Below are positions 6,446 through 38,310 of a stretch of DNA of 64,000 bases, one piece after another. The notes under the pieces were generated by a model. That model saw only the letters and a list, made by a program, of their open reading frames with translations. It was not told the origin of the DNA and searched no databases. Source of the stretch: Octadecabacter arcticus 238 (GTDB lineage: Bacteria > Pseudomonadota > Alphaproteobacteria > Rhodobacterales > Rhodobacteraceae); contig NC_020908.1 in assembly GCF_000155735.2 (NCBI RefSeq), forward strand, positions 1,431,001-1,495,000, in the 5' to 3' direction. Each line of letters begins with the position of its first letter. The stretch's first letter is position 1. The position numbers and the translations under genes are program-made.

Positions 6446-6483
6446 CCTTGCCCGACAGTCGATACGCAGTATCGTTGAGAGGG
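6446..6483 (+). repeat. Hairpin mini-insertion 1 (38 bp) inside IS3 orfA
   Basis: Separates SGLT-coding and VSSDLG-coding parts of orfA. 5' arm ends GCCCGACAG, then stem TCGATAC, loop GCA, stem GTATCGT, then TGAGAGGG. Stem has one terminal mismatch. Sense orientation relative to the transposase gene. Confidence 0.85.
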
Positions 6484-6550
6484 GCGACGCAGGTATCATC
6501 AGATTTGGGCGTTGGCCTTTCGACGCTAAACAAGTGGGTTCAACAACATC

Positions 6551-6591
6551 CGGCGCCCGGCAGGGTATTGCGCAGCAATGTCCCGAGAGGG
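6551..6591 (+). repeat. Hairpin mini-insertion 2 (41 bp) inside IS3 orfA
   Basis: Lies between codons for QQH and HDDLM of orfA, which are adjacent in related proteins. 5' arm GCCCGGCAG, stem GGTATTGC, loop GCA, stem GCAATGTCC (one bulge), end CGAGAGGG. Sense orientation. Confidence 0.87.
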
Positions 6592-6787
6592 AGCATGATG
6601 ATTTGATGATCGTCATTTGAGCGCCATTGGTCCAAGTGAAGATGGCGATGGCCGCATGAGGACGTTGAGAAGGAGAACACCCGCCTTAGCAAATAAGTCC
6701 GGCTGCTGCGTGAGGAGAGGTAAGTGCTAAAGTGGAGGCGTTGGCAATTGATCCAGTGGATCATTTGTCGCCGATATCGCGGCGATC

Positions 6788-6828
6788 CACTGACCGGCAG
6801 GGCATTGCGCAGCAATGTCCCGAGAGGG
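6788..6828 (+). repeat. Hairpin mini-insertion 3 (41 bp) at the IS3 remnant deletion junction
   Basis: 5' arm CACTGACCGGCAG, stem GGCATTGC, loop GCA, stem GCAATGTCC, end CGAGAGGG. Same stem class as insertions 2 and 7 but with C where they have T, turning a wobble into a C-G pair. The OrfB reading resumes immediately after it. Confidence 0.85.
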
Positions 6829-6996
6829 GGCAATCACACGTTCAACATCGCGCCTCATCTGCTGGATCAGGATTTCTCAGCGGATGGCCCCAACCAGAAA
6901 TGGGCTGGCGACATATCCAATATCTGGACCAGTGAAGGGTGGCTGTATCTGGCCATCATCCTTGATTTGCACTCCCGTCGCGTCATCGGATGGGCC

Positions 6997-7034
6997 CCCT
7001 CTCATCGATACTTTGTATCGACTGCCGGTCAGTG
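6997..7034 (-). repeat. Hairpin mini-insertion 4 (38 bp) inside IS3 orfB
   Basis: On the minus strand: CACTGACCGGCAG, stem TCGATAC, loop AAA, stem GTATCGA, end TGAGAGGG. Removing exactly 38 bp restores GGATGGGCC-GTCAGTAACCGC, coding IGWAVSNRMK as in related OrfB. Antisense to the transposase. Confidence 0.9.
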
Positions 7035-7083
7035 GTCAGTAACCGCATGAAAGAGTTATGCCCAAAAGTTGGTGACGGCTTGA

Positions 7084-7606
7084 TTAAGCAGCATTTTGAA
7101 GTTGCTTGATCCCGTCTTTGAACTCAACCCCTTGAATGACTTCGGGTAGGCGGTTGGTGCCGCTGAGCTTTCGCCATTTCTTCTTGGCTGACATCATCAG
7201 CTTGAAGACCATCGACAGCGCCGTTTTTCGGCTCAGGCAGCCCTTTGTCTTACGGGTTCGGTTACGAACGGTGGCGAAGACGCTTTCGATGGGGTTGGTG
7301 GTTCGGATGTGCTTCCAGTGCTCGGCAGGGAAATCGTAGAACGTCAGCAACATGTCGCGATCTTTGGTCAGCTTTTTGACCGCCCGCTCGTATTTGACGC
7401 CGTAGGTTTCAACGAACAGATCGAAGGCGACGACGGCCGCCTTTTTTGTTGCCGCCATCTATTACCCAGCAGGACATGCTTGCATGCCTGAGAGGGCATA
7501 TGTCTTGCAACCCTGCCTTGGCCTTTTCATGCATTGGATTGGGCATAGCACCCGTGATGTTGGCCATCTTGTGGACCCAGCAGCGTTGTTCTTTCGTCGT
7601 CGGGTA
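7084..7606 (-). pseudogene. IS256-family (Mutator-type) transposase, C-terminal remnant
   Basis: Reads YPTTKEQRCWVHKMANITG..KAKAGLQDI, then (after a 37-bp insert) WMAATKKAAVVAFDLFVETY.. to the stop at 7084 (..VEFKDGIKQLQNAA). This is the last third of an IS256 transposase, including the segment with the third catalytic acidic region (NPIESVFATVRNRT). The N-terminal two thirds are missing: at 7606 the frame passes into unrelated sequence. A right terminus is probably near 7057. Confidence 0.88.
7460..7496 (+). repeat. Hairpin mini-insertion 5 (37 bp) inside IS256 transposase
   Basis: TATTACCCAGCAG, stem GACATGC, loop TT, stem GCATGCC (one mismatch), end TGAGAGGG. Its removal rejoins LQDI and WMAATKK, the usual uninterrupted IS256 sequence. 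Antisense to the transposase. Confidence 0.9.
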
Positions 7607-7795
7607 TATCGCGAGCCCACCAACGGTAAGCAGCGCCAACGTCAGCACCAAAGATATATACACCCACAGAGTGTAAAACCACTTTGCCGCCGTCATATTG
7701 GCAAACTGGGGATTCCTATAAAGGCCGTCGTGGCACTGTCCGTCAGTTCCTTCGCGCAGTCTTTGTCCAAGTTCAGTATCTGGGTCAATTTGGCC
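7607..7795 (-). pseudogene. Fragment of an unidentified membrane protein gene
   Basis: Between the sigma-factor and IS256 remnants the open frame codes for DTELGQRLREGTDGQCHDGL then a single hydrophobic helix (WFYTLWVYISLVLTLALLTVGG). I do not recognise the family. It probably belongs to a gene that was adjacent to the sigma factor before rearrangement. Confidence 0.45.
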
Positions 7796-8191
7796 CGCAT
7801 CCTCATACGAAAAACCAGACACGCCAACGAGGATCAGCGCCTCGCGTTGTTCATCATGCAATTGGTCAAACGTGATTTTGAAATCCATAAATTGCAATCG
7901 GCCGTCGCGATCGAGCTTAACTGAAATCTTGTTCGAAAAGAAGTTGTCCACGTCAGCATTTTCGCGGTTCAATGTGCGGCAGCTGCTGTGAAAATTAATG
8001 CGCAGGATCGTAAAGCGCCAAGCCCGCATGTTCGTCTCAGGATTGAATTTATCTATGTTTACCAATGCTTTAAGTACGGTGTCCTGCATCATATCATTTG
8101 CTGTAGATCTGGTCCGCGTCAGGCTATGGGCAAACGCCCTGAGCGCCGAAAGATATGTCACCAACTCGTCGTGCGGATCGAGGTTAGTCAC
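7796..8191 (-). pseudogene. EcfG-like RNA polymerase sigma factor, truncated in region 4
   Basis: Residues 1-132 read as a sigma-70 family ECF factor of EcfG type: region 2 (TRTRSTANDMMQDTVLKALV.., NMRAWRFTILRINFHSS), a linker, and the beginning of region 4 (LHDEQREALILVGVSGFSYEDA). Homology stops there; the recognition helix is replaced by unrelated sequence. EcfG factors drive the general stress response of alphaproteobacteria. Without region 4.2 this copy cannot bind the -35 element. Whether another ecfG exists elsewhere is not visible. Confidence 0.8.
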
Positions 8192-8394
8192 TGTCTGACG
8201 GGGTCGCAGTTGCGGGGTGACAGATACACAGCAGCTACGCTTGAAGTGATACTCAAAGATTGGTCTGACTTTGACAATGAAAACCCGGTTAAGGTGAACC
8301 TGTTCAAGTGTTCCATGCGATTTGGACCGCCTCTGGCCAGCAGTTTGTCGATTCCGAAGCCGGTCTGCGCAGCCTTATGTTTTATGGGCCACAG

Positions 8395-8988
8395 CTAGCG
8401 TTTCGCAGCATTCCAATCCGAATACATCTCCGGTCTTTTGCGCAGCAGCTTACTTTCAGTCTTTTCGCTGAGCGTCAGATCGCCGTCCGGCGACACATTG
8501 CGATGCTTGAGGGTGATTTTGAAGTTCAACCGATCCTCAAAGAACGAAACCAGCTTGTCCATCTGTTCGTACTGGAACAGGTGATCGACGATGACCTCAC
8601 CGCTGCCACGACGCAGAAACTTTGTTGAACTGCCGACATTGGCCCATCCCGCGGGTTCACCCTTGGCATATTCGATTACAAAATCATCAAAGGTGATGGT
8701 CTTGGTGCTGTGGGGATTGCCATCCACATCCGCGCGTCGACGATAGCGGTACCAGCTGCCTAGCCAACCAATAGGATGGCGCACAACACAGATCAATTTC
8801 ATGTCTTCGAGCCCACATTTTTCAAGATAGGGCACAAGAAAGCGGTTATGTCGATAGGCTGGCGTGTGTTTTAGAATCGGTGGATTGCGCATCACCATGT
8901 CCGAACGCGGCGCCAATGCCGCCTCAAGTGCGGTCGTCCCCGTCTTCGGCATCGCCAAAAAAAACCAATTTTTCCTTCGCAAATACAA
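8395..8988 (-). CDS. Sulfotransferase family protein
   Basis: 197 aa. The 5' PAPS-binding loop is at residues 14-22 (PKTGTTALE) and the 3'-phosphate motif is VVRHPIGWLGSWYRYRR at about 68-85. This short form is common in Roseobacters. Likely transfers sulfate from PAPS to a sugar or lipid; the acceptor is unknown. The start at 8988 is the first ATG after an AT-rich leader. A 203-bp gap to the sigma remnant holds a 12-bp palindrome TGAACCTGTTCA (8295-8306) but no gene. Confidence 0.85.
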   Translation of the reverse strand: MYLRRKNWFFLAMPKTGTTALEAALAPRSDMVMRNPPILKHTPAYRHNRFLVPYLEKCGLEDMKLICVVRHPIGWLGSWYRYRRRADVDGNPHSTKTITFDDFVIEYAKGEPAGWANVGSSTKFLRRGSGEVIVDHLFQYEQMDKLVSFFEDRLNFKITLKHRNVSPDGDLTLSEKTESKLLRKRPEMYSDWNAAKR

Positions 8989-9109
8989 GCATTTACACGC
9001 AACTCCTGTTCCTCGTTATCTTGTAAACTACTCCTTAACATCTCTGCGGGAAAGATGAGTTGTGAACGATTTTAGTTGAAGTGTTCATGTTTTGATCTCA
9101 TAAGAGTGA

Positions 9110-9124
9110 GAACAAGAGGTGAAC
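9110..9124 (+). promoter_or_regulatory. LexA SOS box upstream of recA
   Basis: GAAC-AAGAGGT-GAAC exactly fits GAACN7GAAC, the reverse complement of the alphaproteobacterial SOS consensus GTTCN7GTTC. It ends 61 bp before the recA ATG. LexA control of recA is expected. Confidence 0.85.
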
Positions 9125-9185
9125 GAAGCATCAGTTACGACCCCCATTGAAGCATCTAGGGGGGCATGGAATAAGGACAAAAATC

Positions 9186-10301
9186 ATGGCAACGGCAGAG
9201 CTCCTAAAGATGACAGACAAGAAATCAGCGGACAAACAAAAAGCGCTCGATTCGGCGCTGGCCCAGATCGAACGTCAGTTCGGCAAGGGATCGATCATGA
9301 CGTTGGGCGGCAATGCTATTCAAGAGATCGAAAGCACGTCGACGGGGTCACTTGGCTTGGACATCGCGCTTGGAATTGGCGGCATCCCGAAGGGACGCGT
9401 CGTTGAAATTTACGGGCCTGAATCGTCGGGCAAAACTACGCTGACGCTGCATTGTCTCGCGGAAGAGCAGAAAAAAGGTGGCGTTTGTGCGTTTGTCGAC
9501 GCAGAGCACGCGCTTGATCCCGGCTATGCCAAAAAGCTTGGGGTGAACCTTGATGAGCTTTTGATTTCGCAGCCCGATACGGGTGAGCAGGCGCTAGAGA
9601 TTGTCGATACGCTGGTCCGCTCCGGCGCGGTCTCGATGATTGTTGTCGACTCCGTTGCAGCCCTGACGCCGAAATCCGAACTTGAAGGCGACATGGGCGA
9701 TCATTCTGTCGGCGTTCATGCCCGCTTGATGAGCCAAGCAATGCGCAAGCTGACTGGATCCATCAGCCGCACCAAATGTACCGTTATCTTCATCAATCAG
9801 ATCCGGATGAAAATTGGCGTTATGTTCGGCTCGCCCGAAACAACGACAGGCGGAAACGCGTTGAAATTCTACTCTTCTGTGCGTCTGGATATTCGCCGCA
9901 TCGGATCCGTTAAGGATCGCGATGAGATCGTTGGCAACAGCACTCGAGTAAAGGTGGTCAAGAACAAGGTCGCGCCACCGTTCAAGCAGGTCGAATTCGA
10001 CATTATGTATGGCGAAGGCATCTCTAAGTTGGGCGAATTGGTCGATATGGGCGTCAAAGCGGGCATCGTTGAAAAGTCCGGCTCATGGTTTTCCTATGGA
10101 GATGAACGCATCGGGCAGGGCCGTGAAAACGCCAAGACCTTCCTGCGTGAAAACCCACACTTCGCCAACGAGATCGAGGATAAAATTCGCGCAGCGCACG
10201 GACTTGATTTTGACGGCGCAACCAAAAAAGACTGCGCAACCAAAAAAGACGGCGCAGCTAAAAAGCCGGGCAAAGAAGACGACGCGCTTCTGGAAGATTA
10301 A
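9186..10301 (+). CDS. recA: Recombinase A
   Basis: 371 aa from ATG 9186, preceded by AAGGAC; a TTG at 9147 is in frame but less likely. Walker A GPESSGKT at residues 77-84, Walker B region [12 protein letters not shown], the [20 protein letters not shown] segment and the C-terminal oligomerisation/DNA loops are all present. The C-terminal tail carries short Lys-Lys-Asp repeats ([16 protein letters not shown]) rather than a purely acidic tail. Strand exchange and LexA co-protease. SOS box at 9110-9124. Intact. Confidence 0.98.
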
Positions 10302-10443
10302 ATTTGATTGCTGGTCGATTTTTGGGGCCATTGGGGGCGCGGGGGAAACCTTGCGCCCTTTTCGCGTTGCGCGCTGTGGACTTGCGTTCGGCGCAAGGCT
10401 ATTTCACGACAGCAATAATTGACCCCGACGGAAAGCCAAACAC

Positions 10444-13098
10444 ATGACCAGCCTGTCAGATATCCGATCCACCTTCCTTGATTACTATGCGCGCCAAGGT
10501 CACGCGGTCGTGGCGTCCAGCCCGCTGGTCCCGCGCAACGACCCGACGCTCATGTTTACCAATTCGGGCATGGTGCAATTCAAGAACCGCTTTACGGGTG
10601 TGGAATCAGGCGACTATCAGCGTGCGACCAGTTCACAAAAATGCGTGCGCGCGGGTGGCAAGCACAACGATCTGGACAATGTCGGTTATACTGCGCGCCA
10701 CCATACGTTCTTTGAAATGCTCGGTAATTTCAGTTTTGGGGATTACTTCAAAGCCGAAGCCATCCCATTCGCGTGGAATCTGCTGACCAAAGATTTTGGC
10801 ATCGATAAATCCAAACTGCTGGTGACAGTCTATCACACCGATGACGAAGCCTATGACCTTTGGAAAAAGATCGGCGTTCCTGAAGATCGTATTATCCGCA
10901 TCGCGACGGATGATAATTTCTGGCGCATGGGGCCAACCGGCCCCTGTGGTCCGTGTACCGAGATTTTTTATGACCACGGTGATCATATTTGGGGCGGCCC
11001 GCCGGGATCGCCCGATGAAGATGGCGATCGGTTCATTGAAATCTGGAACGTCGTGTTCATGCAAAATGAACAATTCGATGATGGCACCTTGAAGCCGCTG
11101 GACATGCAAAGCATCGACACCGGCATGGGGCTGGAACGCATTGGCGCACTGCTGCAAGGTGGGCATGACAACTACGAAACCGACCTTTTTCGCGCCCTGA
11201 TCGAAGCGTCAGCCCATGCGACCAGCACGGATCCGTTTGGTGATCAAAACGTGCATCACCGCGTCATTGCCGACCATCTGCGCTCCACCTCGTTCCTGAT
11301 CGCAGAGGGCGTATTGCCATCAAACGAAGGGCGCGGTTACGTGCTGCGTCGCATCATGCGTCGCGCCATGCGTCACGCGCACATACTCGGATCGAAAGAT
11401 CCGGTCATGCACCGGTTGGTGCCAGCCTTGGTGCAACAAATGGGCGCGGCGTATCCTGAATTGGGGCTGGGACAGACGCTAATCGAAGACACGCTGCTTA
11501 ACGAAGAAGTCCGGTTCAAGACGACATTGGATCGTGGACTGAAACTGCTTGATGACGCACTCGTTGATGTGCCCGAAGGGTCCGATCTGTCCGGTGATAC
11601 CGCGTTCAAGCTCTATGATACGTTCGGGTTTCCGCTGGACCTCACGCAAGACGCATTGCGTGAGCAGGGTCGCGGTGTCGACACCGACGGGTTCAAAGCG
11701 GCAATGGATGCTCAAAAGGCCAAGGCGCGCGCGGCGTGGACCGGCACAGGCGCGTCTGCGGATGCGGCGATCTGGTTTGATATCGCAGACAAGCAAGGCA
11801 GCACAGAATTTTTGGGATATGAGACTGAAACTGCACAAGGCCAGTTGTTGGCAATTGTGTCAGATACTGATCCCGTTGACAGTGCTAGCAAAGGCGACTG
11901 CGTCGCGCTGATTTTCAACCAAACTCCGTTTTATGGCGAGAGCGGTGGACAGGTGGGTGACGAGGGCACAGTCAAGACCGACACAGGCACCGCCCGCATA
12001 ACTGACACCAAAAAGGTCGTCGGACTATTTTTGCACATGGCCGAAGTCACGAGCGGGACAATTACCAAGGGTCAAGGTAGCGAACTGGTGGTGGACCCTG
12101 CGCGCCGCGCTGCGATACGTGCCAACCATTCGGCCACACATTTGTTGAACGAAGCCTTGCGAGTCGCCCTTGGCGATCACGTAGTCCAGCGCGGATCGCT
12201 GAATGCAGCGGATCGTTTGCGGTTTGATTTCACCCACACTGGCGCCATGACCTCCGCGGAATTGACGCAAGTCGAACAGGACGTGAATCGTTATGTGCAA
12301 CAAAACACGGCCGTATCTACACGGATCATGACACCGGACGACGCCCGCGCCATTGGCGCACAGGCGCTCTTCGGCGAAAAATACGGCGACGAAGTCCGCG
12401 TTGTGTCCATGGGCCGCGCGAAAACGGGCAAAGGCGCCGAAGGGCTGACCTATTCGTTGGAACTGTGCGGCGGCACCCATGTGGCGCGCACGGGCGACAT
12501 CGGCATGTTTGCATTGACTTCCGAGCGGGCGTCGTCAGACGGCGTGCGCCGCATCGAGGCACTGACAGGTCAAACCGCGATGACGTACCTGCGGACACGC
12601 GACGAAACCTTGGGCGACGTAGAAGGCATGCTCAAAGCGAAGGGTGCAGATGTAGCATCCCGGGTCAAAGCCTTGATGGATGAACGCAAAGCGCTGGCCA
12701 ATGAGGTGGCGCAATTGCGTCGCGAGGTTGCGATGGGGGGCGGTGCGAAGGATGAAGGCCCACAGGCTAAGACGATCAACGGCATCGCGTTTAAGGCGCA
12801 GGTGATGCAGGGCATCACGGGCAAGGATTTGCCAGCTATGATTGACGAGATGAAATCGGTCATGGGCAGTGGTGCGATCTTGCTGATCGCGGACGGCGAC
12901 GGCAAGGCCGCGGTTGCTGCGGGTGTTACGGCAGATCTGGTCGACAAAGTCAGCGCCGTTGATCTGGTCCGCGCGGCTGTTGCCGAGCTTGGTGGTAAGG
13001 GGGGCGGTGGTCGCCCCGATATGGCGCAGGGTGGCGGCAAAGATGCCAGAAATGCTGACGCAGCCATAGCAGCGGCTGAAGCGATCCTTCTGGCCTAG
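10444..13098 (+). CDS. alaS: Alanyl-tRNA synthetase
   Basis: 884 aa, normal length. The N-terminal class II aminoacylation domain contains the motif-2 area ([30 protein letters not shown]). The editing domain follows with the zinc ligands HSATH (about residue 560) and CGGTH (about 680), then the C-terminal DHHA1-type domain with the Gly-rich [16 protein letters not shown] loop. Downstream of recA as in many Rhodobacteraceae. A strong terminator follows at 13182-13216. Confidence 0.98.
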
Positions 13099-13117
13099 TC
13101 GTTTCTGCCTTCCCCCT

Positions 13118-13174
13118 GCCTTTGTCTCAAAAATATCCCGGGGGGGGCGAAGCGGGGGCAGCGCCCCCTCCGAG
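13118..13174 (+). repeat. GC-rich dispersed intergenic repeat, copy 1
   Basis: CTTTGTCTCAAAAATATCCC followed by a G-run and the palindrome GGGGGCAGCGCCCCC. The same block, inverted and with a longer middle, lies at about 22155-22250. Intergenic blocks of this type are familiar from Rhodobacteraceae genomes; function unknown. Confidence 0.7.
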
Positions 13175-13181
13175 ACACAAA

Positions 13182-13216
13182 AAAGGCCCGCGTTTCGATA
13201 TGAAACGCGGGCCTTT
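13182..13216 (+). terminator. Intrinsic terminator after alaS
   Basis: Perfect 15-bp stem (AAAGGCCCGCGTTTC and its complement) with a 5-nt loop GATAT, flanked by A and T runs so it can work in both directions. Confidence 0.93.
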
Positions 13217-13227
13217 ATTTATTAATA

Positions 13228-14420
13228 TACTCCTGCGCCTGAATTGACCTGACGATTTTGGGCCTGCGATTCACTTCGTCGCATGGCCAAAGGCGGTTCA
13301 GTCTGTATTTTGAGTTTATGAGCAAGCAATACAAAACAGTCTCCTTATCCGACGAGCAGCGCATAGCACTTGAAGCGCTTTGCCGCCGCCGCAAAGTTGA
13401 CGCCCTTGTTTGGAAACGGGCGCGCGCGTTTCTTCTTTTGGACGCAGGAGAAGACGCCGGAACGGTTTGCCGGATTTTGGATATTGGCCCGACAGTTTTG
13501 ACGGAGTGGCGATTTGCCTTTGCCGGTGTGGGACTATCGTTTTTCGGTCTGAAGGACTACAGCCAGCGTCAGGGTCATTTGTCCGTCGTGCAAGAGCAGG
13601 CGGTGAGAGCCCATTTCACCGCGCAGCCTGCCCGCAATGCCGATGAGGTCTGTGCCTATGTTCTAGCCGAGTGCGACCAAAACTACAGCACGTCGGGAGC
13701 CGCCAAGCTGATGCGCCGCCTGGGGTTCGCGTATAAGAAACCACAATTACTGCCTGCACAGGCCGATGAAGCCAAGCAGGCTGCGTTTATTGCCAAATAT
13801 GAGGCCCTGATGAACGGGTTGGCCGCAGATGAGATGGTTGTCTTTTCGGACGCTGTCCACCCCGAACACCAGAGCCGCCCCGCCCATGGTTGGTTCCCCA
13901 AGGGACAAAAGACGGCCCTGAAGGCGACATCAGGGCGCAAGCGGCTCAACATTCAGGGCGCGCTTGACCTTGAGACTTTCCAGTTCACCTTTGTGGAAGG
14001 CGAGAAGATCAATGCCCAGACAACCCGACAGATGCTGGAAAAGTTGGAACGCAACAACCAAACCAAGACGGCCATCCACGTCTTTGTCGACAATGCCCGC
14101 TATCATCATGCCAAGATACTACAGCCATGGCTGGACAGCCCAGAACGTCGGGTGAAGTTGCATTTCTTGCCAGCATATGCCCCGCACCTCAACCCGATCG
14201 AGCGTCTTTGGGGTGTTATGCACAAATGGGTCACCCACAATCGGCACTATGCAACGTTCAACCAATTCACAGAGGCCATTTTCGACTTCTTCCGCAAGAC
14301 CCTGCCAGAAAAATGGCCAGAGTTCCGCGACACCGTCACCGACAACTTCCGCGTCATATCGCTCAAGGAATACAAAGTGATTTGAGGGGAAAACCTCAGG
14401 TCAATTCAGGCGCGGGAGTA
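13228..14420 (+). mobile_element. IS630-family insertion sequence (about 1193 bp)
   Basis: Inverted ends TACTCCYGCGCCTGAATTGA at both sides (left from 13228, right ending 14420), with TA at 13226-13227 and 14421-14422 as the TA duplication typical of IS630/Tc1 elements. Inserted just downstream of the alaS terminator, between alaS and the convergent typA. Confidence 0.92.
13318..14385 (+). CDS. IS630-family transposase
   Basis: 355 aa from ATG 13318. Helix-turn-helix region at the N-terminus, then the DDE core: FSDAVHPEH, VFVDNARYHHAK and PHLNPIERLW (the DDE third residue in IE). Full length and without interruptions, so probably active. An in-frame upstream start at 13258 would add 20 residues without family support. 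Confidence 0.93.
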   Translation: MSKQYKTVSLSDEQRIALEALCRRRKVDALVWKRARAFLLLDAGEDAGTVCRILDIGPTVLTEWRFAFAGVGLSFFGLKDYSQRQGHLSVVQEQAVRAHFTAQPARNADEVCAYVLAECDQNYSTSGAAKLMRRLGFAYKKPQLLPAQADEAKQAAFIAKYEALMNGLAADEMVVFSDAVHPEHQSRPAHGWFPKGQKTALKATSGRKRLNIQGALDLETFQFTFVEGEKINAQTTRQMLEKLERNNQTKTAIHVFVDNARYHHAKILQPWLDSPERRVKLHFLPAYAPHLNPIERLWGVMHKWVTHNRHYATFNQFTEAIFDFFRKTLPEKWPEFRDTVTDNFRVISLKEYKVI

Positions 14421-14432
14421 TAAATCAGAATC

Positions 14433-16247: not shown

Positions 16248-16366
16248 TGGAAGTCCTTAAGAAAGCATAAAAGCGGGCGCAAATGCGTCCCGCAGAAGAT
16301 GTTGCGCGGGCAATACCGCGCCTTTGCTGGAAAGGATAGGGGGTATTGACCGAATTCGCCTTAGCG

Positions 16367-16702: not shown

Positions 16703-16730
16703 GATTTGGCTTTTCTACGTGGCGCAAGTC

Positions 16731-17360: not shown

Positions 17361-17465
17361 GGCGATGGCCTATGGGTCAGGCTGGACCAAGTCCAGAAGA
17401 AAGGGCCACCCGAATTTTTAATCATGCGGGCAGCTCTTTGATTCTTTTTGCTGTGTAGAAGAAAA

Positions 17466-20588: not shown

Positions 20589-20602
20589 TGGTCCCTCGGG
20601 GC

Positions 20603-27458: not shown

Positions 27459-27485
27459 CACCTAAATTCACCTTTAATCTGATAC
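27117..27485 (+). terminator. Possible terminator or attenuator hairpin before sufC (27485-27517)
   Basis: The hairpin runs from 27485 to about 27517: outer stem CAGAGG/CCTCTG (27485-27490 with 27508-27513), inner stem CCGCG/CGCGG, then TTTT. It would end the inserted module or tune sufC expression. Confidence 0.5.
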
Positions 27486-27536
27486 AGAGGGCCGCGGTTT
27501 CGCGGGTCCTCTGTTTTGCTATGGAAAGAGAATAAA

Positions 27537-29593: not shown

Positions 29594-30078
29594 TGCCGGT
29601 TGCTCGTGATATTGTCCGGACCTACAGCGCCCCGCGTCGTGTGACGCGGGCGCTGTATTCGATGGGGCAACGCGAAGATCGCGCGATCATGTGGCTGATG
29701 ATCGGCTGCTTTATGATGTTCACTTCACGGCTGCCAGCGCTGCAACGCAACGCAGTCGGAACTGGCACGGATTTTCGGCAGGATACGATTTATGCCCTCT
29801 TTTCATGGCTAATCTTGGCGCCGCTGCTGTTTTACGCCATTGCGTTCATTCTGTTTGGTGTGACACGCGCGGTGCGCCCCTCAGCAACTGCGTATGGCGC
29901 ACGGTTGGCGGTGTTTTGGGGCTGGCTGGCTGCGACACCATTGGCCCTGTTTTACGGGTTACTTGTCGGCTTTAACGGGCTTAACCACCCTGGAACCGTG
30001 CTGGTTGGCGCGATTTGGTTGGCCGCGTTGATTTGGTTCTGGATCAACGGCCTTATTGAGACATCGAAAGCAATCTGA
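29593..30078 (+). CDS. Membrane protein of the suf operon (Yip1-like)
   Basis: 161 aa from ATG 29593, overlapping the sufD TGA. Four hydrophobic segments (IMWLMIGCFMMFTSRL, TIYALFSWLILAPLLFYAIAFILFGV, AVFWGWLAATPLALFYGLLV, GTVLVGAIWLAALIWFWI). Pairs with the next gene, a clearer Yip1-type protein; the couple is regularly found between sufD and sufS in Rhodobacterales. Role in Fe-S assembly unknown. Confidence 0.7.
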   Translation: MPVARDIVRTYSAPRRVTRALYSMGQREDRAIMWLMIGCFMMFTSRLPALQRNAVGTGTDFRQDTIYALFSWLILAPLLFYAIAFILFGVTRAVRPSATAYGARLAVFWGWLAATPLALFYGLLVGFNGLNHPGTVLVGAIWLAALIWFWINGLIETSKAI

Positions 30079-30695
30079 TGGACCTAACACTGACAAGCCT
30101 TTGGCATTGGACGAAACTGACGGTGCGCGCCCCTGCGACGGCGTCCGCACTGGTGAGGGCGGCGAAGTTGCCGATTGAGGTGTCGATCATGATGATCGCG
30201 CTTGCTGGGATTGTATCTGGCGTGTCATCGGGGTTTCTGGACTATCTGAGCGGCGCGCCGCCCGTGGAATTTCTGATGGCGGACGGGCAAACGCTGTCGT
30301 TTGATCGCAGCGGCCCGCTGATGCAGGCCATTTATGCCGTGGGCACCGGACTGGCGCTGCCCTATGCGATTTTTCAGGTTGGCAAACGCATGGGTGGCAA
30401 GGGCGGTCTCGCCGATATCATGGCTGTGACGGCGGTGCTGCAACTGGTGATGACGGTGATCTTGCTGGCGCAAACAGTCGCGCTGTTGGTGGTGCCGGTG
30501 CTTGGGTTTGGCTTTTTGGTTTTCGGGCTCTATGTCTTCTTTCGTGGCTTGGGCCACGCAGTCAATATTGGTCATGGTTTCAATAGTTTGGGATTGTCGA
30601 CAGGCGTGATCGCGCTGTCGTTCGTAGCCATAGTGATAATGGCGTTTTTGGTTGTTTCGGTGTTCGGCATCGGCCCCGTGGGAGAATTGAGATGA
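30078..30695 (+). CDS. Yip1-domain membrane protein
   Basis: 205 aa. About five helices, with the typical Yip1 order (IMMIALAGIVSGVSSGFLDYL, AIYAVGTGLALPYAIFQVG.., VLQLVMTVILLAQTVALLVV, GFGFLVFGLYVFF, TGVIALSFVAIVIMAFLVV). Start codon overlaps the preceding stop; its own end overlaps the sufS start by 4 bases. Confidence 0.75.
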   Translation: MDLTLTSLWHWTKLTVRAPATASALVRAAKLPIEVSIMMIALAGIVSGVSSGFLDYLSGAPPVEFLMADGQTLSFDRSGPLMQAIYAVGTGLALPYAIFQVGKRMGGKGGLADIMAVTAVLQLVMTVILLAQTVALLVVPVLGFGFLVFGLYVFFRGLGHAVNIGHGFNSLGLSTGVIALSFVAIVIMAFLVVSVFGIGPVGELR

Positions 30696-31915
30696 GCTTT
30701 GATGTTGCGGCCGTCCGCGCCGATTTTCCGATTTTGTCGCGTGAGGTGAATGGCAAACCGTTGGTGTACCTCGATTCCGGTGCATCGGCGCAAAAGCCGA
30801 ACTGTGTTATTGACGCGATCAACACGGCCTATGCGTTTGAATACGCCAATGTGCACCGTGGTCTGCATTACCTGAGCAGTGTGGCGACCGAAAAATACGA
30901 GGGTGTGCGCGCAACCGTTGCCAAGTTCCTTGGGGCGCGGGACGAAAACACCATCGTGCTGAATTCCGGCACGACCGAAGGAATCAACATGGTCGCTTAT
31001 GCTTGGGCGATGAACACCATGTCCGACGGGGATGAGATTATTCTGTCCGTCATGGAACACCACGCTAACATCGTGCCTTGGCATTTCCTGCGCGAACGCA
31101 TGGGTGTCAAATTGGTTTGGGTGGATGTCGACGCCAATGGTGATCTGGACCCGCAAAAAGTGCTGGATGCCATCACTCCGCGCACCAAACTGATCGCGGT
31201 AACGCATTTGTCCAACGTGTTGGGCACGGTTGTGGACGTCAAAACCATTTGCCACGGCGCGCGGGAACGTGGTGTTGCGACGCTGATTGATGGATCACAA
31301 GCCGCCGTGCATATGCCGGTCAATGTCGAAGATATCAGTTGTGATTTTTACCCGATAACTGGCCATAAACTTTATGGGCCATCAGGGTCCGGCGCGATCT
31401 ATGTTCGGCCTGAACGCATGGCTGAGATGCGCCCGTTTATGGGTGGCGGCGACATGATCCGCGAAGTCCACAAAGACGAGATCATTTACAACGACGCGCC
31501 GATGAAATTTGAGGCGGGAACCCCCGGCATTGTGCAAACGATCGGGTTAGGGGTGGCGCTTGAGTATATGATGGGGCTGGGGATGGACAACATCGCCGCC
31601 CATGAGCGCACGCTGCGCGATTATGCCCGCAGCAAGCTTGACGGGTTGAACTGGCTGAACGTGCAGGGCACATCTGCTGATAAGGCAGCAATCTTTAGCT
31701 TCACACTTGAAGGCGCTGCCCATGCCCATGACATTTCAACAGTGCTGGACAAAAAGGGTGTCGCGGTGCGGGCGGGTCAACATTGCACCGGCCCCTTGAT
31801 GGACCACCTTGGCCAGACCGCCACTTGCCGAGCATCTTTTGCAATGTACAACACCACCGAGGATGTTGATGCCTTGATCGACGCGCTGGAACTGTGCCAC
31901 AGGCTGTTCGCCTGA
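30692..31915 (+). CDS. sufS: Cysteine desulfurase SufS
   Basis: 407 aa, class II aminotransferase fold. PLP lysine in TGHKLYGPSG, active-site cysteine in RAGQHCTGPLMD, N-terminal VYLDSGASAQKP. Supplies sulfur to SufBCD. Last gene of the operon visible here; no sufE or sufT follows, because a tRNA and an integrated element begin 66 bp later. Confidence 0.97.
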   Translation: MSFDVAAVRADFPILSREVNGKPLVYLDSGASAQKPNCVIDAINTAYAFEYANVHRGLHYLSSVATEKYEGVRATVAKFLGARDENTIVLNSGTTEGINMVAYAWAMNTMSDGDEIILSVMEHHANIVPWHFLRERMGVKLVWVDVDANGDLDPQKVLDAITPRTKLIAVTHLSNVLGTVVDVKTICHGARERGVATLIDGSQAAVHMPVNVEDISCDFYPITGHKLYGPSGSGAIYVRPERMAEMRPFMGGGDMIREVHKDEIIYNDAPMKFEAGTPGIVQTIGLGVALEYMMGLGMDNIAAHERTLRDYARSKLDGLNWLNVQGTSADKAAIFSFTLEGAAHAHDISTVLDKKGVAVRAGQHCTGPLMDHLGQTATCRASFAMYNTTEDVDALIDALELCHRLFA

Positions 31916-31980
31916 TCCTGCGCTTTTGAGGGCACATCAACGTTGCACGCCGCCGCAAGGGACGCTATAGCGGCCAAAGC

Positions 31981-32057
31981 GGTCCCATAGCTCAGCTGGA
32001 TAGAGTGCTCGCCTCCGAAGCGAGAGGTCGCTGGTTCGAATCCAGCTGGGACCACCA
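31981..32057 (+). tRNA. tRNA-Arg (anticodon CCG)
   Basis: 77 nt with encoded CCA. Acceptor stem GGTCCCA/TGGGACC, D arm with AGCTCAGCTGGATAGAG, anticodon stem CTCGC/GCGAG around CTCCGAA (anticodon CCG), T arm GCTGGTTCGAATCCAGC. Its 3' end is a likely integration site for the truncated integrase just downstream. Confidence 0.96.
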
Positions 32058-32163
32058 TTTCCAAGCCCTCTGTTTACAAAGGTTTTATTCCTTGTAACGA
32101 TGGACACGAAAACATTTGAAAAGCTGCTTGTCACACTCTGGTCACACCAAGAGGAGCTTTGAC

Positions 32164-32520
32164 ATGGCTGCATTCAGGAAACGTAACAATAAATGGCAGG
32201 CGCAGATCCGGATCAAAGGACAAGCGCCTCGTACGAAATCCTTCATTACAAAAAGAGATGCCGAAAGCTGGGCTCGAAAAGTCGAGGCAGAACTAGAGGC
32301 CTCCGCTGTACGGATTGATCCACGCGCGTTGGAGCGCTCCACTGTTTGCGATCTTCTTGAACGGTATCGAAAAGAAGTGACCGTAGCAAAGCGTGGTGCT
32401 GCCTCTGAGAACACGCGCCTTGATGGCTTCCTTCGACAGGCATTGGCAAACAAACCCCGATCAAGAGTGACACCACAGGTGTTGGACCTGTCGCGGTTTG
32501 ATGCCGCTTGTCTTATGAAT
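32164..32520 (+). pseudogene. int: Tyrosine integrase, N-terminal remnant
   Basis: Begins MAAFRKRNNKWQAQIRIKGQ, the arm-type N-terminal domain of phage-like integrases, followed by the start of the core-binding (SAM-like) domain (STVCDLLERYRKEV..). The catalytic domain is missing: the frame is lost at the IS110 left end near 32540. Position 107 bp after the tRNA-Arg fits an element that once integrated there. Confidence 0.85.
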
Positions 32521-32546
32521 ATCCCAGCTTTTGTGCGAAACAAGAG

Positions 32547-32704
32547 CCACCGATCAGCATTCTAGAGTGCTGATCGGTGGTGGTGGTTGGATCGGCAAAC
32601 CCTTGGTTTTTGAGGACCGTAAACGAGTAGGATCAACCATCACCTTCGCCAAAGGCCTGAACGGCTACAGAGCGGCACAAAGCCCTCTAGGACAAGCATA
32701 GGAT
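32547..32704 (+). ncRNA. Candidate bridge-RNA region of IS110
   Basis: In IS110-group elements the noncoding end upstream of the transposase encodes a bridge RNA with target- and donor-binding loops. This stretch has the right place and length and starts with a strong hairpin (stem CCACCGATCAGCA). The loops have not been matched to flanks; low certainty. Confidence 0.35.
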
Positions 32705-33649
32705 ATGACGAAGATGACAGATGATACCATTGGGATCGATATTTCCAAAGCCACTTTGGACATTCACCGGCTAAGCGACGGGAAGACGATGTCGTTTAGC
32801 AATTGCCCTGTAGGATTTAAGGCGCTTTCCAGGTTCTGCGCAAAGACGGCAGTGGCACGCGTTGTTTATGAAGCAACAGGTGCCTATCACAGCGGGCTTG
32901 AACGCGCTTTGGGCGCACATTTGCCATTGGTAAAGGTGAACCCTTTGCAGGCGCGCCGGTTTGCACAAGCCCAAGGCTTGCGCGCAAAAACAGACGCTGT
33001 TGATGCCAAAATGCTGGCAGACATGGGGAATGCATTTGCATTAGAACCGGATGAGCCAGCAGCTGAAATTCAACACGATCTGAAAGAGTTACGCTCATTT
33101 CGGTCAGGATTGATCAAGGATAGAACCGGCATCATGAGCCGAATGAAAACTCAAACCCTGTCCATCACGCGCCGCCAAAGCAAAGCCCGTTTGGCTCAGG
33201 TAGATAAGCAAATCGCTGAAATCAATGCTGAAATTGAACGCTTGATAAACTCCAGCGATAAACTGGCGCACTCGATGAAAATCCTCCGCTCCATTCCAGG
33301 CGTCGGCGCTATCTGTGCTGCCACCATTTTGATAGAGATGCCCGAGATCGGGAGTATGGACCGGAAGCAGGTGGCCAGTTTGACTGGCCTAGCCCCGATG
33401 ACGCGTCAATCGGGGCAATGGCGCGGGAAATCATTCATTCAGGGTGGGCGGAAAATAGTGAGGGATGCACTCTACATGCCGGCCTTGGTAGCGATGCGAC
33501 ACAACCCAGACTTCAAGGCTAAGTATCAAGCCCTGATCAAAGCAGGAAAGCCCCCCAAAGTCGCCATAACGGCACTCATGCGAAAGCTCATCGAACTCGC
33601 CAACGCTCTCATCAAAGCAGATCGAAATTGGGTGACAAAGGGGGCTTGA
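32705..33649 (+). CDS. IS110-family transposase (DEDD)
   Basis: 314 aa. N-terminal RuvC-like domain (IGIDISKATLDIHRL, VVYEATGAYHSGLE, KTDAVDAKMLADMG), coiled middle part and the C-terminal transposase-20 domain (LRSIPGVGAICAATILIEMPE, LTGLAPMTRQSGQWRGK) with the conserved serine region. Full length and uninterrupted. Confidence 0.95.
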   Translation: MTKMTDDTIGIDISKATLDIHRLSDGKTMSFSNCPVGFKALSRFCAKTAVARVVYEATGAYHSGLERALGAHLPLVKVNPLQARRFAQAQGLRAKTDAVDAKMLADMGNAFALEPDEPAAEIQHDLKELRSFRSGLIKDRTGIMSRMKTQTLSITRRQSKARLAQVDKQIAEINAEIERLINSSDKLAHSMKILRSIPGVGAICAATILIEMPEIGSMDRKQVASLTGLAPMTRQSGQWRGKSFIQGGRKIVRDALYMPALVAMRHNPDFKAKYQALIKAGKPPKVAITALMRKLIELANALIKADRNWVTKGA

Positions 33650-33700
33650 TCAAGACGGATACTCCTTTGATAGCATTTACTGCAACAAAGGAGATGAACT

Positions 33701-34003
33701 ATGAGACTGACCCGAACGGACGAATTCCGTAAAGATGCGGTGCGTATCGCGCTGACCAGTGGGCTAACGCGTAAGCAGGTGGCCGATGATCTTGGTGTCG
33801 GAATGTCGACGCTGAACAAGTGGATCACGGCACACCGAGACACCGACGTTGTATCGAAATAGGATTTAGGCCTCGCCCAAGAGAATGACCGGCTTCGACG
33901 TGAGATACTTTTACCTGACAGCACATGCTTGCATGTGTGAGAGGGCGCATTCTCAAGGAGGAGCGGGACATCCTAAAAAAAGCCACTCAGTTCTTCGCGG
34001 GTC
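33701..34003 (+). pseudogene. IS3 transposase OrfA, broken
   Basis: MRLTRTDEFRKDAVRIALTSG then KQVADDLGVGMSTLNKWITAH, a complete helix-turn-helix. An in-frame TAG at 33860-33862 stands where the chain should go on into DLGLAQENDRLRRE. 45 bp later a hairpin insert splits RREI and RILKEERDILKKATQFFAG. Confidence 0.88.
33907..33945 (+). repeat. Hairpin mini-insertion 6 (net 38 bp) inside IS3 orfA
   Basis: 5' arm ACCTGACAG, stem CACATGC, loop TT, stem GCATGTG (perfect 7 bp), end TGAGAGGG. Excising it rejoins CGTGAGAT and CGCATTCTCAAG, coding RREIRILK. Sense orientation. One of the 39 listed bases is native. Confidence 0.9.
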
Positions 34004-34010
34004 TAAAGCA

Positions 34011-34909
34011 ATGAGATTTAGATTCATCGAAGAACACGCAGATCGTTTTCCAGCGAACCGATTGTGCAAAGTCGTCGGGGTTAGTTCTCGCGGTTTGCGC
34101 GCATTCCGCAATCGACCAGCCAGCCGCAGGCAACGATCTGATATGGTGACATTGGCGCACATCAAAGAACAGTTCCGCCTCAGTCTTGGCAGCTATGCAC
34201 TGCACGGCAGGGTATTGCGCAGCAATGTCCCGAGAGTGGCAGGCCCCGTATGACCGAAGAACTGAAAGAGATTGGTCTGAACGTCGGGCACCGTCGCGTG
34301 GGCCGTTTGATGCGCCAGAACGGTATCTCTGTAGTTAGAACGCGCAAACACAAGGTAACGACGGACAGTAACCACAAGTTCAACATCGCCCCGAACCTTC
34401 TGGATCGCAACTTCTCAACAGATCAGCCAAACAAGAAATGGGCAGGTGACATTACCTATATCTGGACCCGCGAAGGCTGGCTGTATCTTGCGGTGATCCT
34501 GGACTTACATTCACGCCGTGTCATTGGTTGGGCCGTCAGCAATCGGATGAAGCGTGACCTTGCGATCCGAGCACTGGAAATGGCAATCGCCTTCAGGGCA
34601 CGGTCCAAAGGATGCATCCATCATACGGATCGCGGCAGCCAATACTGTTCCCATGATTACCAGAAGATCCTGCGCCAACATGATTTTAAAGTGTCGATGA
34701 GCGGCAAGGGAAATTGCTATAACAACGCCGCCTTTGAAACGTTCTTCAAAACCATCAAGGCCGAACTGATCTGGCGAGACACATGGAACACACGCAGACA
34801 CGCTGAGATGGCGATCTTCGAATACATCAACGGCTTCTACAATCCGCGTCGCCGCCACTCAGCACTGGGCTGGAAAAGCCCCGTCGCTTTCGAACGCAAG
34901 GTGGCTTAA
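34011..34909 (+). pseudogene. IS3 transposase OrfB, interrupted by one hairpin insertion
   Basis: MRFRFIEEHADRFPANRLCKVVGVSSRG.. runs to QFRLSLGSY, then a 41-bp insert, then RPRMTEELKEIGLNVGHRRVG.. to the end (HSALGWKSPVAFERKVA). The DDE triad is intact in the second part (AGDITYIWT, HTDRGSQY, NGFYNPRRRHSALG with the Glu upstream in AELIWRD..). Only the insert (net +2 frame shift) breaks the gene. Confidence 0.9.
34198..34238 (+). repeat. Hairpin mini-insertion 7 (41 bp) inside IS3 orfB
   Basis: 5' arm CACTGCACGGCAG, stem GGTATTGC, loop GCA, stem GCAATGTCC, end CGAGAGTG. Nearly identical to insertion 2. Its removal rejoins GGCAGCTATG and GCAGGCCCCG, coding GSYGRPRM. Confidence 0.9.
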
Positions 34910-34995
34910 ACGAGCACTTGGGGCGGCACTAAAGCGGGACAGGTCCAATCTTAGATTCCCATTACAATTATCCAATCAATTATTTGACAAATAGC

Positions 34996-36600
34996 GTAAC
35001 TCCCAAGGACCCCATCGGATATCGGGTTTTGTGTTGCCCTTGCGACGTTAGAGCCGAGCGATGATCTGTTGTGGTGATAGGGTGAGTGTTTCGAGGATAT
35101 TGCCCCCGTGTTTTCTGACCGTCGAGATGACGGATCTGATGTCAGCGAAGATCTGCGCGCCCTCGAGGGTGCGGAAAGTTCCCGAGATTTTCATGCGCAA
35201 CTTCATCATGCGCAGGTCCCGTTCGGCCTGATTGTTGGTGAAGGGAACTGTGAAGTCCGTAAGGAACCTTAGGACGTCATCACGGTAGTCGCGCAAGCGG
35301 ACCAGAAGGTTATGGCCTGGCCGCCTGGCTTTTCGGCCTCGCGCACCAGTGCGTCTAGCCAGTGGGTCTTGTCGCTCATGGAAGGCGAGGCTCTCGGTGA
35401 GGATCGCCATGTATTTGGTGAGGATGCCGTGGTGAACCGACGTGGGGAGTTCGGTCTCGCCTCGCCCCTGAGCCGCGCACTTGAGCTGATTGGCGCTGTT
35501 GAGCAGCACGCTCATCGCGCACGCCCACGGCTCCTTTTCGATTTCTTCGATGGCCTTGAGTTCCCGTAAATGATGCGCCCCGCACAGGGCGTGCGCGTCC
35601 ACCCCACTCATATGGGCGTAATAGGACTTCCAGTGGTCATGAACAATTGTCCCGCCGGTCAGGAAGGATGGAACAGCACCGCGCTTGGCGCTGATGCGAT
35701 AATGCGTGAAGGCGAGATCGCTGATTGAGTGCAGCCAGTGCAGCTTACCAGCAACACGAAGTCCGGTCTCATCCAGATGCCGAACGCCGCCTTCATTGAG
35801 CCGGGCCAGAATGTGTTCGACGACGCCACCCAAGGTACGCGCTGTGCCGTTCACTCAGTTGGTCACGCTGGCCGCGCATAGGCTGGTGGCACCAAACAAA
35901 TCACGCAGGAGTTGGCAGACCCGATCCTCGGGGATCAGCTGCTGAACATTGCAGTAGACCGCCGCCGCCCGAATGCGCTTACCGTATTGCACGTGTGCAT
36001 TCACGCCATCGGGAAAGGTGGCTGTCGTCGTGGCTCGGCAATGGCCACAACAATAAATCGCTGCCTGATGCTCTGTGACCTCCAGACGCGGCACCGGTAT
36101 GTCATAAACCTGACGCCTCTCCACCGCCTTGATCATCCCAGCCGTCAAGCCATGCTGACAGGTGCCACAGGCCTCAGCCTCATGTCGCTCCACAAAGTCA
36201 GGCGTTGCTGTCTGACGTAGGGTGTCGCCTCGGTGGCCAACTTGGCCACCACTTTTCTTACCCGACTTACCACGCAGGCTACGCGGTACCGGCTTCTTCA
36301 ACCCATCACTCGAAGGCGGCTTGCTGCTATTACTGCTGTTCTTGGCCAACTGACGCCGCAGATCCGCATTCTCTTGCGCCATGCTCGCCAACGCGGCTTC
36401 CAACTCGGCGATCCTGCGCAGAGCCGTGGCAAGGAGTTGTTCAAGAGCAGTAACTTGGTCCATTCCACCAATGATTCAGAGAAATCGTCACAGCGCCACG
36501 AAATTCAGACCACAACAGAAAATTCATGCGCCTAATGGCCAAGGAGACTCACATCAAAACTGACAAAAACCCGTTATCGGCTGGGGTGTTTGGGAGTTAC
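34996..36600 (-). mobile_element. IS66-related single-ORF element (1605 bp)
   Basis: Both ends begin GTAACTCCCAA and share further blocks (CGGTTTTTGT-like), the GTAA/TTAC pattern of IS66. Flanking octamers CAAATAGC (34988-34995) and AAAATAGC (36601-36608) match at 7 of 8, a decayed 8-bp target duplication. Lacks tnpA and tnpB, as in the tnpC-only IS66 subgroup. Confidence 0.9.
35048..36463 (-). pseudogene. IS66-type transposase split by one TGA
   Basis: Two frames in the same register: 36463-35855 (coiled-coil leader, KNSSNSSKPPSSDG, zinc-binding CGTCQHG and CGHCRAT) and 35854-35048 (DETGLRVAGKLHWLH, HDHWKSYY, NNQAERDLRMMKLRMKISG). The only break is a TGA where related proteins have Trp (ASVTN-stop-VNGTA). 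Otherwise complete at about 471 codons. Confidence 0.92.
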
Positions 36601-36653
36601 AAAATAGCTTTATCAGACAAAAAAACCAATTAATAAAGCAGTACACTGCTTAG

Positions 36654-37733
36654 GCTCAAGTTTCAAATGCAACACTCAGAGCCCTTTGGGCATAGGATGT
36701 TGTGATGGACATACGAAGCAAGCACCTCAGCAGCGAGGACCGTGGCGTGATATTAGCCGAGCATAATAGGGGCAGCAGTCAGCGGTTGATCGGCCAGCTT
36801 TTGCATCGCCCGGCGAGCACGATCTGCCGTGAGCTGGCGCGAGGTCGGCAGGAAGACGGCAGCTATTGCCCGCAAGCGGCGCGGCAGGCCTATGATGCCC
36901 GGCGTGCGCGCTGCCGCCGCGAGCGCAAGCTTGTGGAGGGGAGCGATCTTTATCGTTTTGTTCATGGCAAGCTCGTACATCTGCACTGGTCGCCTGAGCA
37001 GATTGCGCAGAGACTGCGTCTCATGAAGCCTGATGATCCATCCGCCCATGTGAGCCATGAGACCATCTATGCCGCGATTTACGCGCAGCCACGTGGTGGG
37101 CTGAAGGCGGCGATGATCGAGGCGTTGCGTCAAGCGAAGCCTAAGCGTGGGCTCAAGCGCAGGACAGCGGCGGGCAGTGCTATGGTCCCGGAATCATTGC
37201 GCATTATCAATCGCCCTGAAGAGATCGAAGCGCGACTGGTACCAGGCCATTGGGAGGGCGACCTCATCAAGGGCGCATTCAATCGCTCGTCAGTGGGGAC
37301 CTTGGTCGAGCGCAAGACACGCTTTGTCATTCTTTGCAAAATGGACGGCAATGGGGCCGAGGCCGCGCTCGACAGCTTCACCCGCCAGATGAGACGACTA
37401 CCCGCTGCTTTGCGCAAGAGCATGACCTACGACCGCGGCTCCGAAATGGCCTGCCACCCCGAACTCGCCAGACGGTTGAAGATCGATATCTGGTTCTGCG
37501 ATCCGCATGCGCCTTGGCAGCGTGGCAGCAACGAGAACACCAACGGACTGCTGCGTCAGTACATGCCCAAAGGAACTGACCTGAACGGTGCAAGCCAAAC
37601 ATGGCTGAACGACGTTGCAAACCTGATGAACAACCGCCCGAGAAAAACTCTCGGTTGGAGAACACCCGCTGAAGCCATGGCCGACGAAATCGCGGCCTTC
37701 AAATCAACCGTTGCACTTGATGTTTGAATCCAA
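36654..37733 (+). mobile_element. IS30-family element
   Basis: Inverted ends of the form TCAAGTTTCAAATGCAAC (left, near 36657) and GTTGCACTTGATGTTTGA (right, near 37710-37727) surround one intact transposase gene. Exact outer bases not fixed. Confidence 0.8.
36705..37727 (+). CDS. IS30-family transposase
   Basis: 340 aa from ATG 36705. N-terminal helix-turn-helix (LSSEDRGVILAEHNRGSSQR.., ICRELARG), then the DDE core: GHWEGDLIKGAFNRSSVGTLVERKTRF, MTYDRGSEMACHPEL, and PWQRGSNENTNGLLRQYMPKG with the catalytic Glu. Complete and without interruption. Confidence 0.95.
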   Translation: MDIRSKHLSSEDRGVILAEHNRGSSQRLIGQLLHRPASTICRELARGRQEDGSYCPQAARQAYDARRARCRRERKLVEGSDLYRFVHGKLVHLHWSPEQIAQRLRLMKPDDPSAHVSHETIYAAIYAQPRGGLKAAMIEALRQAKPKRGLKRRTAAGSAMVPESLRIINRPEEIEARLVPGHWEGDLIKGAFNRSSVGTLVERKTRFVILCKMDGNGAEAALDSFTRQMRRLPAALRKSMTYDRGSEMACHPELARRLKIDIWFCDPHAPWQRGSNENTNGLLRQYMPKGTDLNGASQTWLNDVANLMNNRPRKTLGWRTPAEAMADEIAAFKSTVALDV

Positions 37734-37956
37734 GCTGTTATGGCAATAAATGCAGGATTTCCACTATATGACGCATACCAAGCCATTAAAACCCCCAATA
37801 CGGGTATCCAAAGCGTCGAAAAAAATTCCGCCTTCATTTTAAATCCCCAACTCACTGATAGTTGATAACAATCGCCTCTACTAGGGTCAGGACCCATTAA
37901 TTGATTGAGTTTGTCGCGTTGTGGTGATTCATAGTCTTCAATTGTAGGGGGATATT

Positions 37957-38310
37957 ATGAGCAATTTGTATTGGCTGACTGAGGCGCAGATGGAGCGTCT
38001 CCGGCCGTACTTTCCAAAGAGCCGAGGTCGTGCTCGTGTGGATGACCGTCGTGTTTTGAGTGGCATTATCTTCATCAATCGCAATGGTTTAAGGTGGTGT
38101 GATGCACCTTCCGAGTATGGACCGCCGAAGACGCTATATAATCGATGGAAGCGCTGGAGTGATATGGGCATATTTGCCCAAATCTTGATGGGGCTGGCCG
38201 AGCAGGCCCCCGACAACAAAACCATCTCAATCCCCTCTCATCGAAACTGCGTTTCGACTGCCGGGCAGTGGACGCCACCTACCTCAAAGCACATCGTACG
38301 GCCGCCAGCC
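37957..38310 (+). pseudogene. IS5 transposase, N-terminal half
   Basis: MSNLYWLTEAQMERLRPYFPKSRGRARVDDRRVLSGIIFINRNGLRW.. (landmarks) is the N-terminal DUF4096-type domain of IS5 transposases; the chain continues after a 38-bp insert with DATYLKAHRTAASL, where the DDE Asp sits, and then stops at the IS3 end. Confidence 0.9.
38233..38270 (-). repeat. Hairpin mini-insertion 8 (38 bp) inside IS5 transposase
   Basis: On the minus strand: CACTGCCCGGCAG, stem TCGAAAC, loop GCA, stem GTTTCGA, end TGAGAGGG. Excision rejoins ACCATCTCAATC and GACGCCACC, coding TISIDATYL, the normal IS5 text. Compared with insertion 4 the stem has a compensated T-A to A-T change. Antisense to the transposase. Confidence 0.92.

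Follow-up and report, generated by a model that had tools for sequence, protein, structure and literature searches.

A family of very small hairpin elements, candidate mobile units, concentrated in transposase genes of Octadecabacter arcticus 238 and other Rhodobacterales

Insertion sequences (IS) of the IS200/IS605 type make no target duplication, have a one-sided target motif and carry a hairpin with an unpaired T, and the attC sites of integrons have the core boxes RYYYAAC and GTTRRRY. Repetitive extragenic palindromic (REP) elements are defined, in the excerpt of PMC3733652 available to us, by a GTAG or CGTC tetranucleotide at the foot of the hairpin. In this study, we describe hairpin elements found in transposase genes within a 64-kb stretch of the genome of Octadecabacter arcticus 238 (contig NC_020908.1, positions 1,431,001 to 1,495,000; hereafter the window), and we compare them with these systems. 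We propose, as a reading with roughly an even chance of being right, that they are members of a Rhodobacterales family of mobile hairpins, non-autonomous and tiny (37–43 nt in most cases), which are moved in trans.

The original prediction had reported eight blocks of 37–41 bp in the window, each interrupting a transposase reading frame. All eight are borne out: the covariance model R2 recovers exactly these eight, with zero further matches in the window at E ≤ 1, and model R1 recovers seven of them. The proposed scan of the whole genome was made with two covariance models, one built from 15 copies of a long class that has a bulged T and the other from 16 copies of a short class that lacks it, and gave 83 and 122 matches, respectively, among the 150 candidates scored per model. 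Rescanning 79 fetched stretches together with the window and merging the results gave 150 places, 124 of which passed a simple end check, and 146 copies remained after four short fragments had been dropped. The resulting catalogue, which is incomplete, lists 146 hairpin copies, some of them weak, at 102 distinct insertion sites. Both exact core motifs are present in 60 of the 146, and some of the weaker copies may be false or may have decayed. Exact matches to the pattern CCGGCAG-N10-30-GAGAGGG number 60 in the genome, compared with 0 for its reversed control. The length range seen in the window widens over the 102 sites to 34–45 nt, the ends of weak copies included, and 23 of the 102 lengths are multiples of three. 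The stop-to-stop frame around the 146 copies is uninformative, its median being 154 with the element, 158.5 without it and 166 without all elements. An Rfam scan of the window at the gathering score returned two tRNAs only and no match to the hairpin element, and no description of it was found in the literature searched at the level of titles and abstract starts, in a limited collection and with limited terms. A longer parent element was sought through 57 left ends CRYTGCCCGGCAG, four of which lie outside the catalogue; none of the three that were read opened a longer element.

Each element forms one hairpin. A 5-nt tail, often CAYTG, is followed by a basal helix of 3 bp in which the two ends pair, by an internal loop (GGCA/GAGA) and by a stem of 8–9 bp with variable sequence; in the long class, this stem has an unpaired T on the 3' side, three pairs above its base. 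In the alignments of the two classes, the whole structure is paired in 97.2% and 95.8% of cells, and the stem columns of both covary, with many two-sided changes. A strict structural parse fitted 70 of the 102 sites (32 did not fit), and at these 70 the basal helix, positions 6–8 with the last three bases, has standard pairs at 60, 70 and 68 sites, exceeding all of 1000 shuffles of the basal pairs (maxima 57, 68 and 67); C-G, G-C, A-T, T-A and wobble pairs all occur, for example in CCC/GGG, CAC/GTG and CGC/GCG. Single-strand DNA folding of the eight window elements gave z-scores that are modest (0.09 to −2.13); it is covariation that carries the case for the structure. The pairs fit the element strand better than its complement, and on that strand most short-class stems have G-U as their basal pair. 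As to the outer frame described for the eight blocks, the 3' strand of the internal loop is GAGA in 65 of the 70 parsed sites, and the 5' loop strand with the stem base reads GGCAG in 48 and GACAG in 10. The 5' pentamer is not constant, CACTG being the commonest of several (28 of the 70 sites, next to CATTG in 14, CGCTG in 6, CGTTG in 5, TATTA in 4 and others).

Comparison with uninterrupted IS copies, as had been suggested, gave clean and exact borders. The IS5 empty site reads GGTGGCGTC|GATTGAG, and occupied copies have the same flanks with 38 bp between them; exact borders were likewise obtained for IS30. There is no target duplication beyond chance (a 3-bp match at 2 of 102 sites, 1.6 expected), and the target motif is one-sided, CCATC-like 5' of the element and mostly G on the right; in 93 left flanks, L-1 is C at 74, L-2 is T at 63 and L-3 is A at 58. 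Both orientations occur, as had been claimed, in the window (copies on + and − strands) and across the family; relative to the host gene, 31 distinct sites are antisense and 17 sense (p 0.06). Where the last base of the pentamer is A, R+1 is C at 6 of 9 sites, compared with 3 of 111 where it is G, a correlation of pentamer and target that is suggestive, the sites being partly dependent on each other. We also considered whether the element 3' end GAGGG guides insertion by pairing with the target CCATC (4 of 5 pairs, by eye), and rejected this because GAGAGTG variants disobey it. At what looks like one and the same IS5 site, two other genera (L043 and L052) have elements with different stems, which argues for repeated insertion.

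Elements also adjoin other rearrangements. Three different elements (L002, 2362–2395; L079, 1801–1835; L001, about 3978–4013) have the same sequence, TATCCGTATTGGTCAAGCTGG, directly after ...TGAG, as if an IS targeted the hairpin in the way that some IS target REP elements. Deletions or fusions with junctions inside elements are present at L026 (6677–6689), L027 (1831–1843 and 2008–2071) and L024 (1819–1835); copies in inverted orientation seem to have been joined there at the palindrome CTGCC(S)GGCAG.

With regard to the hosts, homology to transposases identified by Pfam spans 87 of the 146 copies in the genome or flanks them on both sides; for 34 copies it is present on a single side, and for 25 on neither. 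Once copies with homologous contexts are grouped, 21 remain, in 12 groups. Pfam searches with a single joined frame from each group point to IS110 and IS66 for 9 of these 21, give helix-turn-helix domains only for the four with ISNCY-like hosts and leave 8 without assignment. In our own reading of the Pfam domains, the hosts are IS3, IS5, IS30, IS256, IS630, IS91, IS110, IS481 or IS3, and IS66, and elsewhere IS1182 and IS6. The reported absence of blocks from IS630, IS110 and IS66 is therefore local to the window and no rule, as these types are occupied elsewhere. In other genomes, a sample of at least 120 stretches held 132 pattern matches, 129 of them with a predicted hairpin; among the matches listed, 101 of 132 copies lie within 60 bp of transposase homology, compared with 299 of 3074 CATC|G control sites in the same DNA (odds ratio 30). 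The other 31 have no transposase match in the reference set, although some resemble IS5 or IS21 pieces by eye, and one element copy is inside an RHS gene. It had been foreseen that the block might be a regular part of most homologous IS copies, or that hits might fall mostly outside transposases and lack clean borders; instead, element-free homologous copies exist, and the other copies lie mostly at transposases and have clean borders. The mini-element idea and the transposase bias both withstand these tests, the latter being strong but not absolute in view of the RHS copy and the 31 unmatched copies.

Plasmid records with a match number 97. Eight annotated loci were opened and the matched element was rescanned in six, which do not include L148; in five of the six, transposase homology is no more than 150 bp away, the exception being L143. 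At L142 a second element 300 bp away lies near such homology. Among 35 copies in further genomes, 18 are near transposase homology as judged with the first, smaller reference set, and joined frames add transposases at several others and the RHS gene at one. At L072 (1801–1840), an element inserted in frame adds 13 residues to an IS630 transposase, between NP and IERLW, and is absent from three homologs; it adjoins what we take to be the catalytic Glu, and the IS5 insertion site adjoins what is presumably the catalytic Asp. Five near-identical elements of G377 (L060 and L122–L125) have similar GC-rich contexts with no transposase match in this analysis.

Related genomes also carry the hairpin family. 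All but four of the 80 matches listed come from organisms that we place in Rhodobacterales, the exceptions being two from Vreelandella neptunia, one from Labrenzia and one labelled Alphaproteobacteria. The two pattern matches in the gammaproteobacterium V. neptunia (L267 and L302) are on one 49-kb contig and reflect either transfer of Roseobacter DNA or contamination. Phage records gave no match for one query; five viral contigs match the pattern.

According to the reading that we put first, an enzyme acting in trans would recognise the hairpin in the form of single-stranded DNA (or as RNA) and insert it in the manner of IS200/IS605 or REP elements. Copies would persist mainly in IS genes, these being dispensable and copied, and the hairpins would then travel with the IS. 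A single-strand hairpin and a trans-acting enzyme agree with four features: the target is not duplicated, its motif is one-sided, the structure is strand-specific and insertion occurs in both orientations. The many precise sites in unrelated IS families suggest independent mobility. Several observations weigh against this reading. No mobilising enzyme was found: the Y1 transposase PF01797 is present in 39 of 394 family genomes, and the element-rich genomes G013, G067, G342, G262 and G250 are not among these 39. The elements show no chromosome-wide orientation pattern (permutation p 0.996), although one would often be expected of a replication-fork mechanism. Element hosts served as the seed of the transposase reference set, which was enlarged from the sampled stretches, and the control value of 9.7% is a lower bound for IS sequence. 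Finally, random insertion does not explain why diverged IS copies carry matching element types at a shared site.

The loose element pattern occurs in 267 genomes, a count that includes chance matches, compared with 39 that have PF01797. The genome of O. arcticus 238 has 10 Y1 matches, one of them beside an element, and the rich two-contig genome G013 has none. A Y1 transposase as obligatory partner was rejected in view of the element-rich genomes without a match, and insertion into the lagging strand is unsupported, there being no strand pattern along the chromosome. At L032, about 200 bp separate an element (1980–2019) from the Y1 (IS200-like) transposase domain that follows it (2214–2570).

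The fate of elements in diverged IS copies bears on an explanation that we consider unlikely, though by no means negligible, namely that the element resembles an intron and is precisely removed at the DNA or RNA level, with a frequency sufficient to keep the host transposase or transposon functional; removal would most likely be at the DNA level since both orientations occur. Insertion sites common to two or more copies in the genome number 25, and at 12 of them flank divergence is about 7% or higher. In ten of these 12, the element is of the same type and nearly unchanged while the flanks differ right up to its border (one pair each, summed by hand: 9 of 391 differences in the element vs 250 of 1825, about 14%, in flanks of up to 100 bp). 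The IS at 33.6–35 kb of the window and that at L089 have two elements in common (0 of 37 and 1 of 41 differences) and are 18% diverged, with a strong codon-position bias (142, 50, 25). The 255-codon part of orfB downstream of both elements has 98 synonymous changes, 37 non-synonymous ones and 1 stop, where 37.8 synonymous changes of 136 are expected, and this frame evolved under selection. Removal of two elements gives an ISNCY-like frame of 476 codons. In G013, an IS3-type IS carries four elements in the orfB frame. Six of its copies are full-length, of which three (L181, L182 and L185) have 3-bp flanking repeats, and no element-free full-length copy is present among 32 matches; its orfA is open as it is, removal of the four elements gives a 308-codon open orfB, and the restored frames are stop-free in all six. 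However, these six copies differ by 12 non-synonymous vs 3 synonymous changes (4.6 expected), one of which loses the orfA start, and the recent occupied copies show no purifying selection. The occurrence of six full-length copies suggests that the IS was moved by a helper now lost or that its transposase works despite the insertions, and the excess of non-synonymous changes speaks for the lost helper. In IS30, occupied copies differ mutually mainly at third codon positions (e.g., 0, 2, 15), yet all 30 fetched full-length copies (of 42 matches) are empty and the five occupied ones are mostly broken, three being partial or deleted; L036 has undergone rearrangement and has 3 stops, and L030 keeps its full length and has 1 stop. 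Two changes are required by the IS30 tree, either two gains or one gain and one loss, and the alignments of the IS5 site in the genome (9 occupied and 2 empty copies) are compatible with excision as well as with repeated gain. Against removal, moreover, other occupied pairs such as L004/L035 have frameshifts or no codon bias, no excised product is known, and at two of the diverged sites there is more change in the elements than in the flanks: the elements of L034/L107 are different ones (21 of 40), and those of L080/L013 differ at 11 of 46. The same is true of two of the 13 closer sites, L070:2088/L008 (4 of 40) and L103/L105 (3 of 39). The long-term and the recent selection signals disagree.

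Translational bypassing is known from phage T4 gene 60 and from yeast mitochondria, and the hairpins do interrupt otherwise intact frames. It is nevertheless very improbable that they are programmed bypassing segments, which we rejected on finding matched take-off and landing codons at the insert borders of 0 of 102 sites in either reading; in addition, both orientations occur and empty copies exist. It is also conceivable, though we regard it as improbable, that the elements are a neutral residue of random insertion everywhere, seen mainly in dead IS genes after selection had purged the others. The excerpt of PMC9208149 available to us puts IS at about 21% of the O. arcticus 238 genome, which is in line with such a residue, as are the mostly broken state of the occupied IS30 copies and the RHS copy. 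Intergenic DNA, however, should tolerate insertion too, whereas about three quarters of the listed copies in other genomes touch transposase sequence; nor does a residue account for the same type at the same site in diverged copies.

In the window itself, seven of the eight starts stand as reported, and the start given as 33907 shifts by two bases to 33909. A short-class element at 6446..6483 (+) is in an IS3 orfA, the host being that named in the original prediction and the gene read by eye, and the same site and type recur in 5 copies of the genome. A long-class element with the bulged T follows at 6551..6591 (+), in an IS3 orfA read by eye, with the same site in 3 copies. The long-class element at 6788..6828 (+) lies at the deletion junction of an IS3 remnant, and rearranged versions of its left flank are present at L009 and L024; here the claim that excising a block restores the normal protein fails, as removal alone gives no normal frame. 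Two elements are antisense to their hosts at 6997..7034 (−), short class, in IS3 orfB, and at 7460..7496 (+), with the pentamer TATTA, in an IS256-type transposase whose stop-to-stop frame is 321 codons with the element and 417 without it. Of the pair shared with L089, the element at 33909..33945 (+) in IS3 orfA is identical at 37 of 37 positions at the same site in L089, where the flanks have diverged, and that at 34198..34238 (+) in IS3 orfB has the compensated basal helix CAC/GTG. A short-class element at 38233..38270 (−) is antisense in an IS5 transposase and adjoins an Asp codon of it. The intact, element-free IS30 transposase at 36705..37724 (+) served as an empty-site comparator.

The hairpins would rank with the smallest known units of mobile DNA, and their structure is explicit and testable. 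The family is spread through a major marine order, where it marks transposase genes of many families. If the elements were removable, they would be the smallest intron-like mobile element, a parasite of transposons, and would imply a new excision or splicing activity; if not, one would have to ask how they are targeted or confined to transposase genes, and why many remain nearly unchanged amid diverging surroundings. Either way, they account for some apparent transposase frameshifts in Roseobacter genomes.

Like the Rickettsia palindromic elements, the hairpins are palindromic inserts within open reading frames, but they are only about 40 nt long, few of their lengths are multiples of three, and their hosts are mostly transposases. 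They share with miniature inverted-repeat transposable elements a small size, lack of coding capacity, dispersal and precise insertion, but they make no target duplication and their ends pair over 3 bp only, beside a 5-nt tail. Unlike integron attC sites, their ends are mostly CAYTG and GAGAGGG (by eye). The REP elements and their associated tyrosine transposases (RAYT; the REPtron) are similar in that, in the excerpts of PMC3733652 and PMC1525189 available to us, REPs are palindromes of 20–40 bp in many copies, sometimes within genes and targeted by other IS. The hairpins differ from them in having no GTAG or CGTC tag, their foot being mostly GGCAG or GACAG, in lying mainly at transposase genes rather than between genes, and in occurring in several element-rich genomes that have no match to the Y1 transposase of RAYT systems. 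A complete IS200/IS605 element differs as well, because the hairpin element is a single hairpin with no tnpA or other coding part, no pair of left and right ends and no strand pattern. We do not class the family with IS200/IS605 or REP, given that tag, enzyme and two-ended layout were each looked for and are lacking; what it does have in common with IS200/IS605 is the absence of target duplication, insertion 3' of a short target and an unpaired T in the hairpin.

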